Assembly: GCA_030610815.1 (NCBI GenBank)
Contig: JAUWRA010000004.1
Span: forward strand, 1 to 36,773
Length of the DNA: 36,773 nucleotides
Reading direction: 5' to 3'
Source of the DNA: Methanosarcinales archaeon
GTDB taxonomy: Archaea; Halobacteriota; Methanosarcinia; Methanosarcinales; Methanocomedenaceae
Shown here: positions 1,860 through 8,343 of the stretch, piece by piece
Layout of the letters: each line of letters starts with the position of its first letter
How positions within the stretch are numbered: the stretch's first letter is position 1
The notes under the pieces: generated by a model
Databases searched by the model: none
Told to the model about the DNA's origin: nothing
The model's input: only the letters and a program-made list of their open reading frames with translations
Position numbers and translations under genes: made by a program

Positions 1860-2621
1860 ATGTTCCGGGGAACAACAAAAACTTACATCCTCGACCGCAA
1901 GGATTTTGCCGGCGATCTCTACGCTATCTATGAAGAGGTGATGGTCTACTTGCAGGCTAAGCTGAATACTACGCTGATTCCTCATGCCAGAGGTCGGGAC
2001 GAACGGCTGGAGTTGCCTGTGGATGCCCTTCGGGAAGCTCTTGTCAATGCCATTGCGCACTGCGACTACCGTTCAACCGCCAATGTGCAGTTGTATATTT
2101 TCTACGACCGTCTTGAGATTGTGACGCCGGGCGGCCTGCCCGCTGGGATGCGCGAAGAGGATTTGGGAGTGAAGAGTGTGCCGCGCAATCCATTGCTGTT
2201 TGGGATGTTCTATCGTATGGGGATGGTGGAACAGGTAGGCAGTGGTATCAAACGAATCCGTGAGATGTGTCGCGATTATGGAGTGGCTGAGCCAGTGATC
2301 GAGGTCTCGGAGAACTGGGTGACAACCACGTTCAACCGACCGAACGGGCAAGTTGAAGACCAGGTCACATGTGAAGTCGCAGGTGAAGTCAAGCAACTGT
2401 TACATGCTCTCACCAGCGGCTCCATGATGAGAGCCGAACTGCAGGAAGCGCTCGATCTCAAGGGACAAGCAAACTTCAGGGATCGTTATCTAACGCCGGT
2501 ACTTGAAGTGGGCCTGATTGAGATGACCATTCCAGATAAACCAAATAGTCGCCTGCAGAAGTATCGCCTGACTGCCAGGGGTAAGGCGCTGCTCGCAGAA
2601 GTTGAGGGGGCACAAGAATGA
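1860..2621 (+). pseudogene. Truncated AlbA_2/HATPase_c_4 (RecG-like) transcriptional regulator
   Basis: A 253-residue frame equal to the C-terminal half of the regulator family often called RecG-like or divergent AAA-4 (AlbA_2 plus HATPase_c_4). The ATP-binding half is clear: LREALVNAIAHCDY (N box), LEIVTPGGLP (G1-like) and VGSGIKRI (G2-like). A winged-helix segment follows (LTSGSMMRAELQEAL). Homology begins abruptly at about 1854 and an in-frame stop lies at 1848-1850, so the N-terminal AlbA_2 domain of roughly 170 residues is missing. GC content and codon use are richer than in the arsenic operon before it. It overlaps the next fragment by ATGA, keeping the operon form of restriction loci. 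I call it a pseudogene, though a shortened product could be made. Confidence 0.65.
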
Positions 2622-2950
2622 ACCCATACCCCTACACCGAAGACACCTTCGTTCAGCAGACCACAGCCAACTACTTGGAGAAACAGCTTGGCTGGGACTC
2701 AGTCTACGCCTACAACAACGGGGACTTCGGACCGGACAGCCTGCTTGGCTGCGCATCCGACCGCGAGGTAGTGCTCACGCGCACCCTGCGCGAGAAACTC
2801 GTCGAACTGAACCCCGACCTGCCCGATGAGGCCTACGACGATGCAGTGCGCCAGATCACTGCCACCGACGCTGTGCGAGTGACCATTCGCGATTTCCGGA
2901 CCGATAAATATCAGGCCAGATGGAAGAGATTTTTCATTAATAATAAATGA
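2618..2950 (+). pseudogene. hsdR: Type I restriction enzyme R subunit, N-terminal fragment
   Basis: About the first 85 residues of this 110-residue frame match the beginning of HsdR, the ATP-dependent restriction and translocation subunit of type I systems (MNPYPYTEDTFVQQTTANYL, then DREVVLTRTLREKLVELNP and DEAYDDAVRQI). A full HsdR has about 800-1100 residues, with the PD-(D/E)XK nuclease and helicase motifs further on; all are missing. From residue 85 the sequence no longer follows the family, and it ends in a short AT-rich tail, so the join is a deletion or rearrangement scar. No hsdM or hsdS is nearby. Start by ATGA overlap with the preceding regulator fragment. Confidence 0.65.
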
Positions 2951-3004
2951 AGGTATGGAAGATACACCTCATTACTGATACGCTTGATACGTACAGCCTC
3001 AAGT

Positions 3005-3034
3005 AAAATAAAAATGGCGGGAATGGATCCCACC
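3005..3034 (-). terminator. Hairpin terminator of the CooS-family gene
   Basis: Read on the minus strand, a seven-pair stem (GGTGGGA / TCCCGCC, one G-T wobble, loop TCCAT; 3016-3034) is followed by the T-rich run ATTTTTATTTT. It lies 8 bases after the stop of the CooS-family gene. Confidence 0.6.
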
Positions 3035-3042
3035 ATATCTGA

Positions 3043-4941
3043 TCAGATCCCAAGCGCCTTTCTCTTCTCCATGATATGTGCTTCGATCCCATCAGCAGCC
3101 TCTACCATATCAGTCTCAACTGCCAATTTACCGCCGGTCAGACCTTCCACATCCCGGGTCAGGAGCTTCACAAGGTTTGGTGCCCCGGCGACAGGTGCAA
3201 GCGGTGCCACATGTGTATACAGACCGAACGCCACCGCGAACACGGCATCAATGGTCGCCTTCTGTTCCATATACTCAGGTGCGGTCACAGCCACAGGCAG
3301 CTGCGAGGGGTCAACCCCAAGAGCATCAGCAACAGCAGTGACAATATTGATTATCCTGCCTGTATCGGTACAGGTGCCCATACTCAGAACAGGAGGAATT
3401 CCAAGTGACTCGCATACGGCTTTCAACCTGTCGCCTGCAAGTTCCTGTGCATCAATGGTGGTAAGCCCCGCAACCTGGAGAGCAGCGTTCCCGCAGCCAG
3501 CACTCATGACAAGGATGTCGCGTTTGATGAGTTCCTTTGTAATGGCAATGGTATTGACATCCTGCCCGCTGTCCTTTAACGTTGTGCAGCTTATCAGTGC
3601 CACGATGCCCTTGATGTCGCCTTTTTTAATGACATCCAGCAAGGGGTCAAGTGTTCCGCCAAGTGCGGATACGATGGCTTCGGCAGAGAAACCTGTAAGC
3701 GTCTTCTGTCGGTTCAGGTCGTTCTTAGCAAGTCCTGCTGCCTTTCGTTTCTTGAAGTTTGCTATCGCAAGGTCGATAAGTTCCTGTACCTGTGCCTCTA
3801 CCTTCTCGGGCTTGTATGCGATCTGTCGGTCCATACCAGGCATGGCAACGAGTTTAGATACACTGACGAGCGTGACATTGTATTTGTCCTGATACTCCCC
3901 AAGTGCCGGAGGTGAGCAGTTCATGTCCATTGCAAAGACATCGATACCCTCAGTTGCCAGTGCTGCCTCGATACTGAGCCAGTTGCCGGTAAGTCCCACG
4001 AATACGTCATCCTTCTCAAATCGCTGCAGCAGTTCCTGACCTGTTTCGATCGAACCGATGATATGCAGCCCCTTTGCTCCCGCATCCTTTGCTTTTTGCT
4101 GGTTCCCAGCCTTTTTCGCAGCAGCGATCAATGCGGCACCTATGAATGGCTCATGCCCGTTGGCAACGATATTTATATATTCAGGGTCAATGATGCCCAG
4201 GTCCACCTCGTGTTCATGAGGTAACGGAGTGCCGAACAGTATGTCCTGCCCGAGTTCCAGCGGCACCAGGGAACCATAGATGGTTGCAATGCTCAAGCGC
4301 AGTGCCTTCTTTGCAAGAGACACGTAATCACCATCGATATTGGTCATGCTGCATGTTGTCATGTCCATGGACTCTTCAATTGGTCCGCCTGGCAGGATGC
4401 CAAGTTCTCTCCATACCTTCTGTCTTGATCCAGGTGCAAATATCCCGACCATCCCGAGCGCTTCATCGGAATCCGTGTGAATGCCTTGGAGTATGGCATC
4501 CCCGACCTTTACAGCCAGTTCATTGACAGATGGCTCTTCTGTGCCTGACAGCCCTTTCCCGCTATTGAGTCCGAGTTTGCCTGCAAAATCGCGCAGTTTT
4601 GTTTCGTCCCTGATGGTGAATGGTGTCTGCCCTTTACCAGTGGCTTTCAGGGTCATTGCCACCTCCTTGGCATGGTAGGTATACGCTGTTGTACCCATGA
4701 TGTTCAGGTGGAGGAAATTGCGCATTGCCATGCCGTCGGCATTGATCCCACATGCCCCACGGTCAGCTTTTTTGCTTATCCTGCACGGTCCGTTGCTGCA
4801 CAGCCGGCAGCTTACACCATCGCTGCAAAAGCGGCAGCGAACCCCCTGTGCCTCAAAACGGTCAAAAGTGTTCGTAACGCCGTCTGCATGCAGTTTTTCA
4901 TACATCTTTCGTACTGATTCGTGTGCACTGATATTTTCCAT
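3043..4941 (-). CDS. cooS: CooS-family (Ni-CODH-like) protein with Glu replacing the Cys295 ligand
   Basis: A 632-residue member of the homodimeric carbon monoxide dehydrogenase family, full length for CooS. The N-terminal B/D cluster cysteines are present (C36, C39, C45, C48, C53, C64). C-cluster ligands of true enzymes are found at H263 (NGHEP), C342 (MNCSPP), C452 (ISCTT), C483 (SAGCGN) and C524 (GTCTD), and the catalytic lysine at K561 (EQKA). The fourth cysteine is absent: the family motif GxCCTGNE reads GSIETGQE here, putting Glu299 at the position of Cys295. Hybrid-cluster protein has a glutamate ligand at the matching place, and the published CooS-V of Carboxydothermus, which lacks a canonical cysteine, carries an Fe-S-O cluster and no CO activity. 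CO oxidation is therefore doubtful. ATG at 4941 follows a GTGGTGA site; GTG at 4953 is possible. No cooC, cooF or ACS genes are adjacent. Confidence 0.85.
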   Translation of the reverse strand: MENISAHESVRKMYEKLHADGVTNTFDRFEAQGVRCRFCSDGVSCRLCSNGPCRISKKADRGACGINADGMAMRNFLHLNIMGTTAYTYHAKEVAMTLKATGKGQTPFTIRDETKLRDFAGKLGLNSGKGLSGTEEPSVNELAVKVGDAILQGIHTDSDEALGMVGIFAPGSRQKVWRELGILPGGPIEESMDMTTCSMTNIDGDYVSLAKKALRLSIATIYGSLVPLELGQDILFGTPLPHEHEVDLGIIDPEYINIVANGHEPFIGAALIAAAKKAGNQQKAKDAGAKGLHIIGSIETGQELLQRFEKDDVFVGLTGNWLSIEAALATEGIDVFAMDMNCSPPALGEYQDKYNVTLVSVSKLVAMPGMDRQIAYKPEKVEAQVQELIDLAIANFKKRKAAGLAKNDLNRQKTLTGFSAEAIVSALGGTLDPLLDVIKKGDIKGIVALISCTTLKDSGQDVNTIAITKELIKRDILVMSAGCGNAALQVAGLTTIDAQELAGDRLKAVCESLGIPPVLSMGTCTDTGRIINIVTAVADALGVDPSQLPVAVTAPEYMEQKATIDAVFAVAFGLYTHVAPLAPVAGAPNLVKLLTRDVEGLTGGKLAVETDMVEAADGIEAHIMEKRKALGI

Positions 4942-5035
4942 ATAATTCACCACTCTTTAATTATTTCAAATTTGATATAAGCTTTTTCGAACAACATCAT
5001 TATGCTGACATAACGATCAATGGTGCGGCAGCTAC

Positions 5036-5318: not shown

Positions 5319-6020
<702 letters not shown>

Positions 6021-7088: not shown

Positions 7089-7709
7089 TCACGTACTAAA
7101 ATATTCCATTACTTCTATCATTTTACTGTAATCCAACTCTGTAGCGTAGCAACCATCGTTCAAAAGTGGAACACCATACGTCGTAATGTTCTTATTCTTC
7201 AAAGAGCGCATGACCTTGTTGAGTTCATAATTGCATGCTAAAAGAAGTGCACCATCAGCTGATTCCTTTTTGATGATATGCTTTACATACGAAGAACCTG
7301 CAACGATATAGAGGGTGTAGTTGAACTTCTCTGCATCTGCTTTTATCTTAGAGAAGATGCACTTTCCACATGAGACACACTCTATACCAAACCTTGTTGA
7401 TGCCGCCGGACAATCAAGTGATCGCATGCAATGGGGGGCAAGCAGTAAACGGTGTTTTGTTTTTTTAAAACCAGACCTGTGCGCCATGTTCTTAAGAGAT
7501 ACCACCCATCGTTCCAGCTTTTGGGTATCAGAATACTTCTGGAAGAGAGCTTTTATCGGCAGATAGAAAAAATCAAGTATGTTCACAAAAAAACCAGCAA
7601 GCCAGACATTTCTATGAAGACTGGCACGGCTCACAAACAAAGCTAAAATGACCAGGAAGATGGACGCAACCATGATCGTGATCAGTGCAATCCCGATTAG
7701 ATCATACAT
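7089..7709 (-). CDS. DUF116 membrane-anchored cysteine-rich protein (second of a pair)
   Basis: A protein of about 206 residues of the DUF116 family, function unknown. The N-terminal 30 residues are a hydrophobic membrane segment (LIGIALITIMVASIFLVILALFV). The soluble part holds the family cysteines: LAPHCMRSLDCPA, then GIECVSCGKC and, further on, LLACNYEL and NDGCYATE. The number and spacing suggest metal or Fe-S binding, though no metal is proven. ATG at 7709 overlaps the end of the upstream paralogue; a GTG at 7715 in the same frame is equally close to the GGAG site. It is co-transcribed with the first DUF116 gene, to which it is clearly paralogous. Confidence 0.8.
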   Translation of the reverse strand: MYDLIGIALITIMVASIFLVILALFVSRASLHRNVWLAGFFVNILDFFYLPIKALFQKYSDTQKLERWVVSLKNMAHRSGFKKTKHRLLLAPHCMRSLDCPAASTRFGIECVSCGKCIFSKIKADAEKFNYTLYIVAGSSYVKHIIKKESADGALLLACNYELNKVMRSLKNKNITTYGVPLLNDGCYATELDYSKMIEVMEYFST

Positions 7710-8343
7710 CGTCACATATCTCCATCTTATGAATCACTTCCGCAACATCTACTTTTGTATCATAACATCCATCCCTTATCAGGCAAATGCCTTGGACAGG
7801 CATGAATTTTGAGACTGCCTGCATTGACTCGGTCAGTTCCACATAACATGCTACTCCAAGACATGCGCCCGGGTCATAGGATTTTATGATCTTCCTGACA
7901 AAACTGTCGCCTGGCACAATAAACACTTTGAAATTATACTTATCTGCTGCTTCTACTATGCATTTAATATCACACTTGCCACATCTGGTGCATTCATACC
8001 CTACTATAGGGTCGCATCGCGCCCTGCATTCAGGATGCCTCATGCATTGTGGAAGGATAACAGCGCGTCTTACCTTTGTCTTTTTAAACTTATCAAGCAT
8101 AACTGCATTCTTGACCTCGATCAGGATCTCATCTACAATTTCTTCTTTAATAGAAAATATCCTGCAGATCCATTTTGCAGGCGAGTAGAAGAGATAAAGC
8201 ATAAATAAGATGTAATTCGGGAATATGATCTTGTGTTTCCTGATACTATAGGCACCAAACAGTAACGCTATTCCTGTCACAAGTATTACTGCGATTACCA
8301 GAAATACGAACAGTTTGCCTAGTAGTTCATAGGAGATTAGCAT
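7702..8343 (-). CDS. DUF116 membrane-anchored cysteine-rich protein (first of a pair)
   Basis: A 213-residue DUF116 protein with an N-terminal transmembrane segment (LLGKLFVFLVIAVILVTGIA) and a cytoplasmic cysteine-rich part: LPQCMRHPECRARCDP, YECTRCGKCDIKC, LGVACYVEL and RDGCYDTK. The four-cysteine cluster resembles a ferredoxin-like or zinc-binding knot. It overlaps the paralogue downstream, so the two are translated as a pair and may form a heteromeric membrane complex (inference). The first 46 codons and the upstream region occur a second time at 9676-9859 as a truncated copy. Confidence 0.8.
   Translation of the reverse strand: MLISYELLGKLFVFLVIAVILVTGIALLFGAYSIRKHKIIFPNYILFMLYLFYSPAKWICRIFSIKEEIVDEILIEVKNAVMLDKFKKTKVRRAVILPQCMRHPECRARCDPIVGYECTRCGKCDIKCIVEAADKYNFKVFIVPGDSFVRKIIKSYDPGACLGVACYVELTESMQAVSKFMPVQGICLIRDGCYDTKVDVAEVIHKMEICDDV

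Follow-up and report, generated by a model that had tools for sequence, protein, structure and literature searches.

On the minus strand of the window, by which is meant the whole 36,773-nucleotide stretch of DNA analysed (contig JAUWRA010000004.1, assembly GCA_030610815.1, of a Methanosarcinales archaeon of the Methanocomedenaceae), the open reading frame at 3043-4941 encodes a CooS-family protein of 632 amino acids (from ATG 4941) that is, judged from its sequence, an orthologue of CooS-V of Carboxydothermus hydrogenoformans. With a probability of roughly 0.6, based on sequence, a structural model and analogy, it would be a CooS-V-type hybrid-cluster protein built on a carbon monoxide dehydrogenase (CODH) scaffold, a low-potential Fe-S-O reductase that deals with NO/NH2OH or O2-derived stress. 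The glutamate that sets such proteins apart from CODHs has already been described; what is new here is the gene context of CooS-V orthologues.

The plus strand across 3043-4941 is riddled with stops, and the coding strand, which the preliminary description had not named, is the minus strand. The frame ends with the stop at 3043 and comprises 632 codons if translation starts at ATG 4941 and 636 if it starts at GTG 4953. The sequence favours ATG 4941 because a GGTGA stretch sits 5 nt upstream, with the in-frame GTG 4953 as a possible alternative, and with the ATG start the residue numbers given earlier (H263, E299, C342, C452, C483, C524 and K561) are exact. Purifying selection acts on the gene (dN/dS 0.06-0.10 against five relatives). 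Since Glu299 is in addition invariant in 90 Glu-type rows from many phyla, it is neither a chance change nor a sequencing error.

The GxCCTG motif of CODHs reads GSIETG in the window protein, GMCCTG or GLCCTG in the solved true CODHs, and GSIESG in CooS-V. Alignment to the solved CODHs bears out the earlier placement of Glu299 at the C-cluster ligand Cys295 of CODH-II (Table 1). A different cysteine at this position is excluded, as the segment aligns confidently and without gaps, and the residue preceding the glutamate is an isoleucine. Relative to Ni,Fe-CODHs, the C-cluster set of five cysteines and one histidine is thus incomplete (Cys295 to Glu299), and the acid-base His93 is replaced by Tyr87. 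The marks of CooS-V and of structural group D-1 are present: Glu299 for the first C-cluster cysteine, a second D-cluster cysteine (Gly41 to Cys, C36/C39 forming a CxxC), Tyr87 at the acid-base His position, and Glu559 two residues ahead of the catalytic Lys561. In the alignment with the hybrid-cluster protein (HCP), the hybrid-cluster residues Tyr, His, Asn, four Cys, the equivalent of Glu494, and Lys are all found in the window protein, the column of HCP Glu268 falling in a gap. The change of Cys295 to Glu is the published hallmark of the CooS-V subclade (PMC9311411) and the mark of structural group D-1 (PMC6344411). Because CooS-V and group D-1 share these marks, the GSIETG "deviation" signals membership of a known group; what had been presented as unusual in this archaeon is typical of a large group that already has a name, and CooS-V itself has Glu there. 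The link that had been drawn to the glutamate ligand of HCP is sound in substance (PMC6344411, PMC9311411), but the two glutamates are not aligned in sequence (PMC10502027).

Table 1. Features of the cooS gene, its product and its flanks, in window coordinates.
Feature	Position	Strand	Basis
CooS-V-type (structural group D-1) protein, 632 aa	3043..4941	-	ORF, NCBIfam TIGR01702, PDB match, AlphaFold model
GGTGA, Shine-Dalgarno-like, 5 nt before ATG 4941	4947..4951	-	sequence
Cys36 and Cys39 (CxxC), subunit-bridging D-cluster, as in CooS-V	4825..4836	-	alignment
B-cluster cysteines C45, C48, C53, C64	4750..4809	-	sequence, alignment
Tyr87, at the site of the CODH acid-base His93	4681..4683	-	Tyr in 90/90 Glu-type rows
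His263, C-cluster/hybrid-cluster His	4153..4155	-	alignment
Glu299, at C-cluster ligand Cys295 of CODH-II; Glu295 of CooS-V	4045..4047	-	alignment
Asn341-Cys342; Asn as in CooS-V/HCP, Gln in true CODHs; Cys a ligand	3916..3921	-	alignment
Cys452, cluster ligand	3586..3588	-	alignment
Cys483, cluster ligand	3493..3495	-	alignment
Cys524, cluster ligand; persulfide Cys521 of CooS-V	3370..3372	-	alignment; PMC9311411
Glu559-Gln-Lys561; Glu is HCP Glu494 / CooS-V Glu556; Lys is CODH-II Lys563	3259..3267	-	alignment
tpiA, divergent upstream neighbour	5352..6020	+	Pfam TIM
HATPase_c_4 / Fic-like C-terminal ORF, convergent downstream neighbour, no CooS link	1860..2621	+	domain search

By sequence, the best match in the PDB is CooS-V (7b7q, 780 bits), with true CODHs reaching at most 393 bits. 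The NCBIfam model for CODH (TIGR01702) gives the window protein 782 bits (cut-off 478), and that for HCP (TIGR01703) gives 51.1 bits, below its family cut-off of 360.8. An AlphaFold (AF2) model of the window protein has a pLDDT of 91.7, and its closest fold by Foldseek is CooS-V (7b9a; rmsd 1.2 Å, TM 0.97, 57% identity over the whole length), true CODHs ranking after it (rmsd about 1.8-2.3 Å, 31-36% identity). The structure prediction that had been suggested as a check thus lies nearest to CooS-V and not to true CODHs, and the suggested alignment to CODH-II, CooS-V and HCP yields a string of ligand and second-shell residues identical to that of CooS-V.

CooS-V of C. hydrogenoformans (7B7Q/7B95/7B97/7B9A; WP_011342982; group D-1, clade D) shares with the window protein the ligands, including Glu295 and Glu556, the Tyr at the position of His93, the CxxC D-cluster and the fold. 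Unlike CooS-V, the window protein is archaeal, lies in an ANME subclade far from C. hydrogenoformans and is known here from its sequence, and orthologues of its gene neighbour genes for a flavodiiron protein (FDP), rubrerythrin, a ferredoxin:thioredoxin-reductase-like protein (FTR) and an HAO-type cytochrome. HCP, the hydroxylamine reductase, has the equivalents of Tyr87, His263, Asn341, the four Cys, Glu559 and Lys561 and, as published structures show, a Glu ligand, but differs in its N-terminal region, lacks a CODH-type D-cluster, and has potentials about 300 mV higher than those of CooS-V (PMC9311411). The Ni,Fe-CODHs (CODH-II, CODH-IV, and those of D. vulgaris and Thermococcus) share the fold, the B- and D-cluster sites, five of the six C-cluster ligands and Lys561, whereas the window protein has Glu for Cys295, Tyr for His93, Asn for Gln at 341, and Glu at 559. 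A Cys-type CooS of Methanoperedens, encoded close to or directly beside CooS-V (L028:2461, L225; resembling group D-4), has Tyr87, Asn341 and Glu559, yet keeps Cys at 295 (SMCTG) and has Gly (Gly41) at the second D-cluster position, a combination that reads as intermediate at the level of sequence.

In an alignment of 110 rows, 90 of them Glu-type (two of these, L103 and L157, being the same gene), the four B-cluster cysteines, Tyr87, His263, Ile298, Glu299, Asn341, the four cysteine ligands, Glu559 and Lys561 are invariant in 90/90 Glu-type rows, and the second D-cluster cysteine is absent from one of the 90. A tree computed after removal of the Glu column separates all Glu-type rows from the rest by a single branch (SH-aLRT 100, one state change), with the window protein in this Glu-type subclade. 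It is this position, together with the presence of all tested D-1 residues, that identifies the protein as a CooS-V orthologue. When HCP is left out of the tree, the Cys-type rows of Methanoperedens (e.g., L028:2461) branch as sister to the Glu-type. The window protein falls with ANME-3, ANME-2-cluster and Methanoperedens sequences into one clade of 32 rows (SH-aLRT 99) that is separate from the Glu-type of Methanosarcinaceae methanogens. Because ANME-3 shares its family (f4) with methanogens whose Glu-type lies apart, transfer of cooS between ANME lineages would be the simplest reading of these sequences. Rooting with HCP unites the Cys-type CODHs in a single clade (98/100) in which the Glu-type is not nested; a topology that nests the Glu-type together with the Cys-type of Methanoperedens as a derived clade is rejected only marginally (AU p 0.044), and monophyly of the Glu-type is not rejected (p 0.58). 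The HCP-rooted topology appears to fit the scenario of PMC10502027 better than the late change from Cys to Glu of PMC9311411, but this support for the direction of the change is weak, given the great length of the HCP branch and the thin sampling of CODHs. One Glu-type cooS of the Methanosarcinaceae (L157, G027) has an in-frame TAG at codon 86, where its relative L221 has TTG; this is either a nonsense mutation or a codon for pyrrolysine.

The assembly (2.37 Mb, 220 contigs) contains one CooS, the window gene, and one CdhA. No HCP was found in this genome, and mcrA was not found in the assembly, but is present in four of five genus-mates. No cooC, cooF or ACS genes lie near cooS in the window, and the earlier statement that the gene stands alone is accurate there, its flanks being tpiA and the Fic-like/HATPase gene; it does not extend to the nearest orthologues, which sit in an operon. 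The window cooS as part of an operon was rejected, the flanking tpiA and Fic-like genes having no plausible link to it. The cooS-tpiA pair recurs in the genus-mate G003, in which a frameshift and a TAA stop disrupt the orthologue (L149/L222, C39), and which also carries a Cys-type CooS on another contig. A rubrerythrin-FDP-FTR operon is found on a different contig of the window's own genome, at C187 (L148), without cooS.

The closest orthologues have a different context. In ANME-2-cluster and ANME-3 genomes, a rubrerythrin-like protein, FDP, FTR and CooS-V are encoded on one strand in an operon in which cooS is last. The four genes are present in L002-L004 (ANME-3 type; L002:5532-9736) and in L007-L010 and L012 (ANME-2 cluster), FTR and CooS-V stand at the end of a contig in L011, and FDP, FTR and CooS have contiguous coordinates in G006 (C14:33368-36898), G011, G012, G014, G015 and G016. 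The CooS-V of an ANME-3 genome (G180, contig DQIP01000183.1) is 87% identical to the window protein. The operon FDP resembles the anaerobic NO reductase flavorubredoxin (464 bits, below the cut-off). No mention of the rubrerythrin/FDP/FTR/CooS-V operon was found in the literature, and a 2026 survey reports no clear neighbourhood for clade D CooS (PMC13056359). An HAO-type multiheme cytochrome adjoins a Glu-type cooS in seven loci, six of Methanoperedens (L005, L017, L020, L028, L031, L032) and one of the ANME-2 cluster (L009); examples are L028:7905-11287 and L009:2792-6123. The cytochromes of L009, L017 and L028 have eight CxxCH motifs (octaheme), and those of L009 and L028 match HAO structures with E values of 1e-24 or better. 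Near and far counts at CooS-V loci are 10 and 0 for FTR, 7 and 0 for HAO, and 10 and 3 for cupin, figures that describe and do not test an enrichment because the families were picked from the surroundings of cooS and the loci are related and not independent. At 16 Cys-type cooS loci none of these neighbour families occurs, except for a ferredoxin in L028/L031 that is common to the Glu-type copy.

There are parallels with HCP loci. In the Methanosarcinaceae, a cupin lies directly beside HCP in 19/32 loci, and an FTR as well in 12/32 (among L112-L119 and L188-L211; the HCP-cupin-FTR tandem is seen, e.g., at L159:1748-4351). The cupin that precedes CooS-V in L216 belongs to the same family as the cupin of HCP loci (67% identical), and a related cupin is found near CooS-V at nine further loci, in varying positions and orientations. 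The cupin and FTR families are common to HCP and CooS-V loci of relatives, and are absent beside the window gene. Known regulators of hcp are HcpR (Crp/Fnr) and NsrR (Rrf2) (PMC1274295); an Rrf2 regulator is found in 7/32 and a Crp/Fnr regulator in 2/32 bacterial HCP loci, and in 9/86 and 5/86 CooS-V loci, respectively. A 243-aa ferredoxin neighbours CooS-V in 19 loci; its identification as the FrdX of HCP operons was not borne out, as only 2/32 bacterial HCP loci matched and no curated family names it. Within the order, HCP was recorded only in family f4 (88/186 genomes) and in neither the ANME families nor the ANME-3 genus, and just 2/38 genomes with near relatives of the window gene have it. 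Mutual exclusion of HCP and CooS-V was rejected as a rule, since methanogens of the Methanosarcinaceae have the two together, and HCP is present in 16/19 carriers of CooS-V-like proteins versus 46/61 others in the class of G209 (Desulfotomaculum-type bacteria; Fisher p 0.54). The two exclude each other only in ANME and certain close groups, and because those 16/19 carriers also have HCP, CooS-V is no simple replacement for it.

The earlier suspicion that the protein is perhaps not a CO dehydrogenase gains strong support from its orthology to CooS-V, which has the same glutamate. In agreement with the earlier description of that protein (an Fe-S-O cluster, no CO activity, slow reaction with hydroxylamine), CooS-V contains no nickel, neither oxidises CO nor reduces CO2, and reduces NH2OH slowly (PMC9311411), and the C295E variant of CODH-II is Ni-deficient and CO-inactive (PMC9311411). 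That the window protein is nevertheless a CO dehydrogenase, with Glu299 serving as a ligand for Cys295 and nickel inserted in the native host, is very improbable. Such a reading could draw on the score far above the CODH family cut-off, on the retention of the catalytic Lys and of all C-cluster ligands but one, and on the oxidation of CO by Methanoperedens, which has both Glu-type and Cys-type copies (PMC13079737); but the presence of the Cys-type copies weakens that last point, CooS-V has the same ligand set as the window protein, the acid-base His93 is a Tyr throughout the Glu-type rows, and the window has no adjacent Ni-insertion gene.

By analogy, the window protein is probably a protective reductase, since its active site carries the CooS-V change and the cooS genes of its relatives lie among genes that remove O2 and nitrogen oxides. 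CooS-V has potentials of -390, -170 and +80 mV, and its cluster opens to substrate only when reduced (PMC9311411), properties that argue for a reductase. If the window protein works as the structure of CooS-V suggests, it would form a homodimer in which a bridging [2Fe-2S] D-cluster and [4Fe-4S] B-clusters pass electrons to a nickel-free Fe-S-O active cluster with Glu299, Glu559, His263 and four Cys as its ligands. Once reduced, this active cluster would open a channel, bind a small oxidised substrate, give up its electrons and return to the oxo/persulfide state. From the neighbourhoods of the orthologues, the physiological substrate may be a compound that arises under nitrosative or oxidative stress (NO, NH2OH or peroxide), and it would be handled jointly with FDP, the rubrerythrin-like protein and the FTR-like disulfide reductase, or beside the HAO-type octaheme cytochrome. 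The earlier proposal of a reductase of N-oxides accordingly gains from the FDP, rubrerythrin, FTR, HAO-type cytochrome and cupin neighbours, but not from the hydroxylamine activity of CooS-V, which is very low (kcat 0.13 per s; PMC9311411); because that activity is so low and NO reduction was not detected (PMC9311411), the true substrate may differ. The solitary position of the window gene also counts against the stress reading. A more specific version is tentative, with the odds somewhat against it: in ANME without HCP, CooS-V may be the sole hybrid-cluster enzyme, the low-potential NO/NH2OH reductase of a rubrerythrin/FDP/FTR/CooS-V defence module that replaces the HCP-cupin-FTR set of methanogens.

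It is rather unlikely that Glu-type proteins reduce an unrelated low-potential substrate (e.g., a disulfide, sulfur oxyanion or peroxide) with the adjacent FTR as redox partner. An FTR-like gene does lie directly upstream in nine ANME loci (291-427 bp from its mid-point to cooS), FTR enzymes handle disulfides, and the potentials of CooS-V, ~300 mV below those of E. coli HCP, led its authors to see a different physiological role (PMC9311411). FTR may instead belong to FDP, however, because the two pair without cooS in the window's own genome, and the rubrerythrin and HAO neighbours suggest O2 or N-oxide stress. Redox sensing is an unlikely role as well; here CooS-V-type proteins would be regulators and not enzymes, signalling a redox-dependent change in cluster shape to partners. 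The very slow turnover of NH2OH and the reversible restructuring of the cluster (PMC9311411) are consistent with a sensor, a genome survey suggested regulatory roles for clade D (PMC13056359), and divergent V4R/ArsR, Rrf2 and Crp/Fnr regulators adjoin many Glu-type genes. Such regulators would more simply control cooS, as HcpR does hcp (PMC1274295), and the partners in ANME are enzymes, not regulators; the invariance of the electron-transfer clusters and of the active-site Lys, Glu and His is also what would be expected of an enzyme.

These considerations bear on annotation, as pipelines label Glu-type proteins as CO dehydrogenases, the window protein included. For Methanoperedens BLZ2, five CooS were counted and treated as CO-oxidising (PMC13079737); two weakly expressed CODHs were put in a different structural group, and the available part of that report does not discuss the missing Cys (PMC13079737). 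BLZ2 has at least two Glu-type copies, the one at 7905 in L028, with the HAO-type cytochrome next to it and a Cys-type copy opposite, and the one in L030. By analogy with CooS-V these should not oxidise CO, and they are probably not CO dehydrogenases. If the detoxification reading for ANME is true, part of the "cooS" of methanotrophic archaea that is counted as CO-oxidising would consist of detoxification genes. The operons and gene pairs, with FDP, rubrerythrin, FTR, the HAO-type cytochrome and cupin as partners, give CooS-V a concrete and testable role.

Other parts of the window deserve brief mention. An ArsR-like regulator and a methyltransferase, probably an arsenite methyltransferase, occupy 543-1612 at about 37% GC; the GC content at 2001-4000 is 53%, and the ~37% GC stretch was perhaps acquired. 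Two DUF116 genes (208 and 213 aa) overlap head-to-tail at 7089-8343. In the genus-mate, a small ORF of MNTLTW/MNTLAW repeats (L222:8973-9224) lies between genes that are adjacent in the window too.
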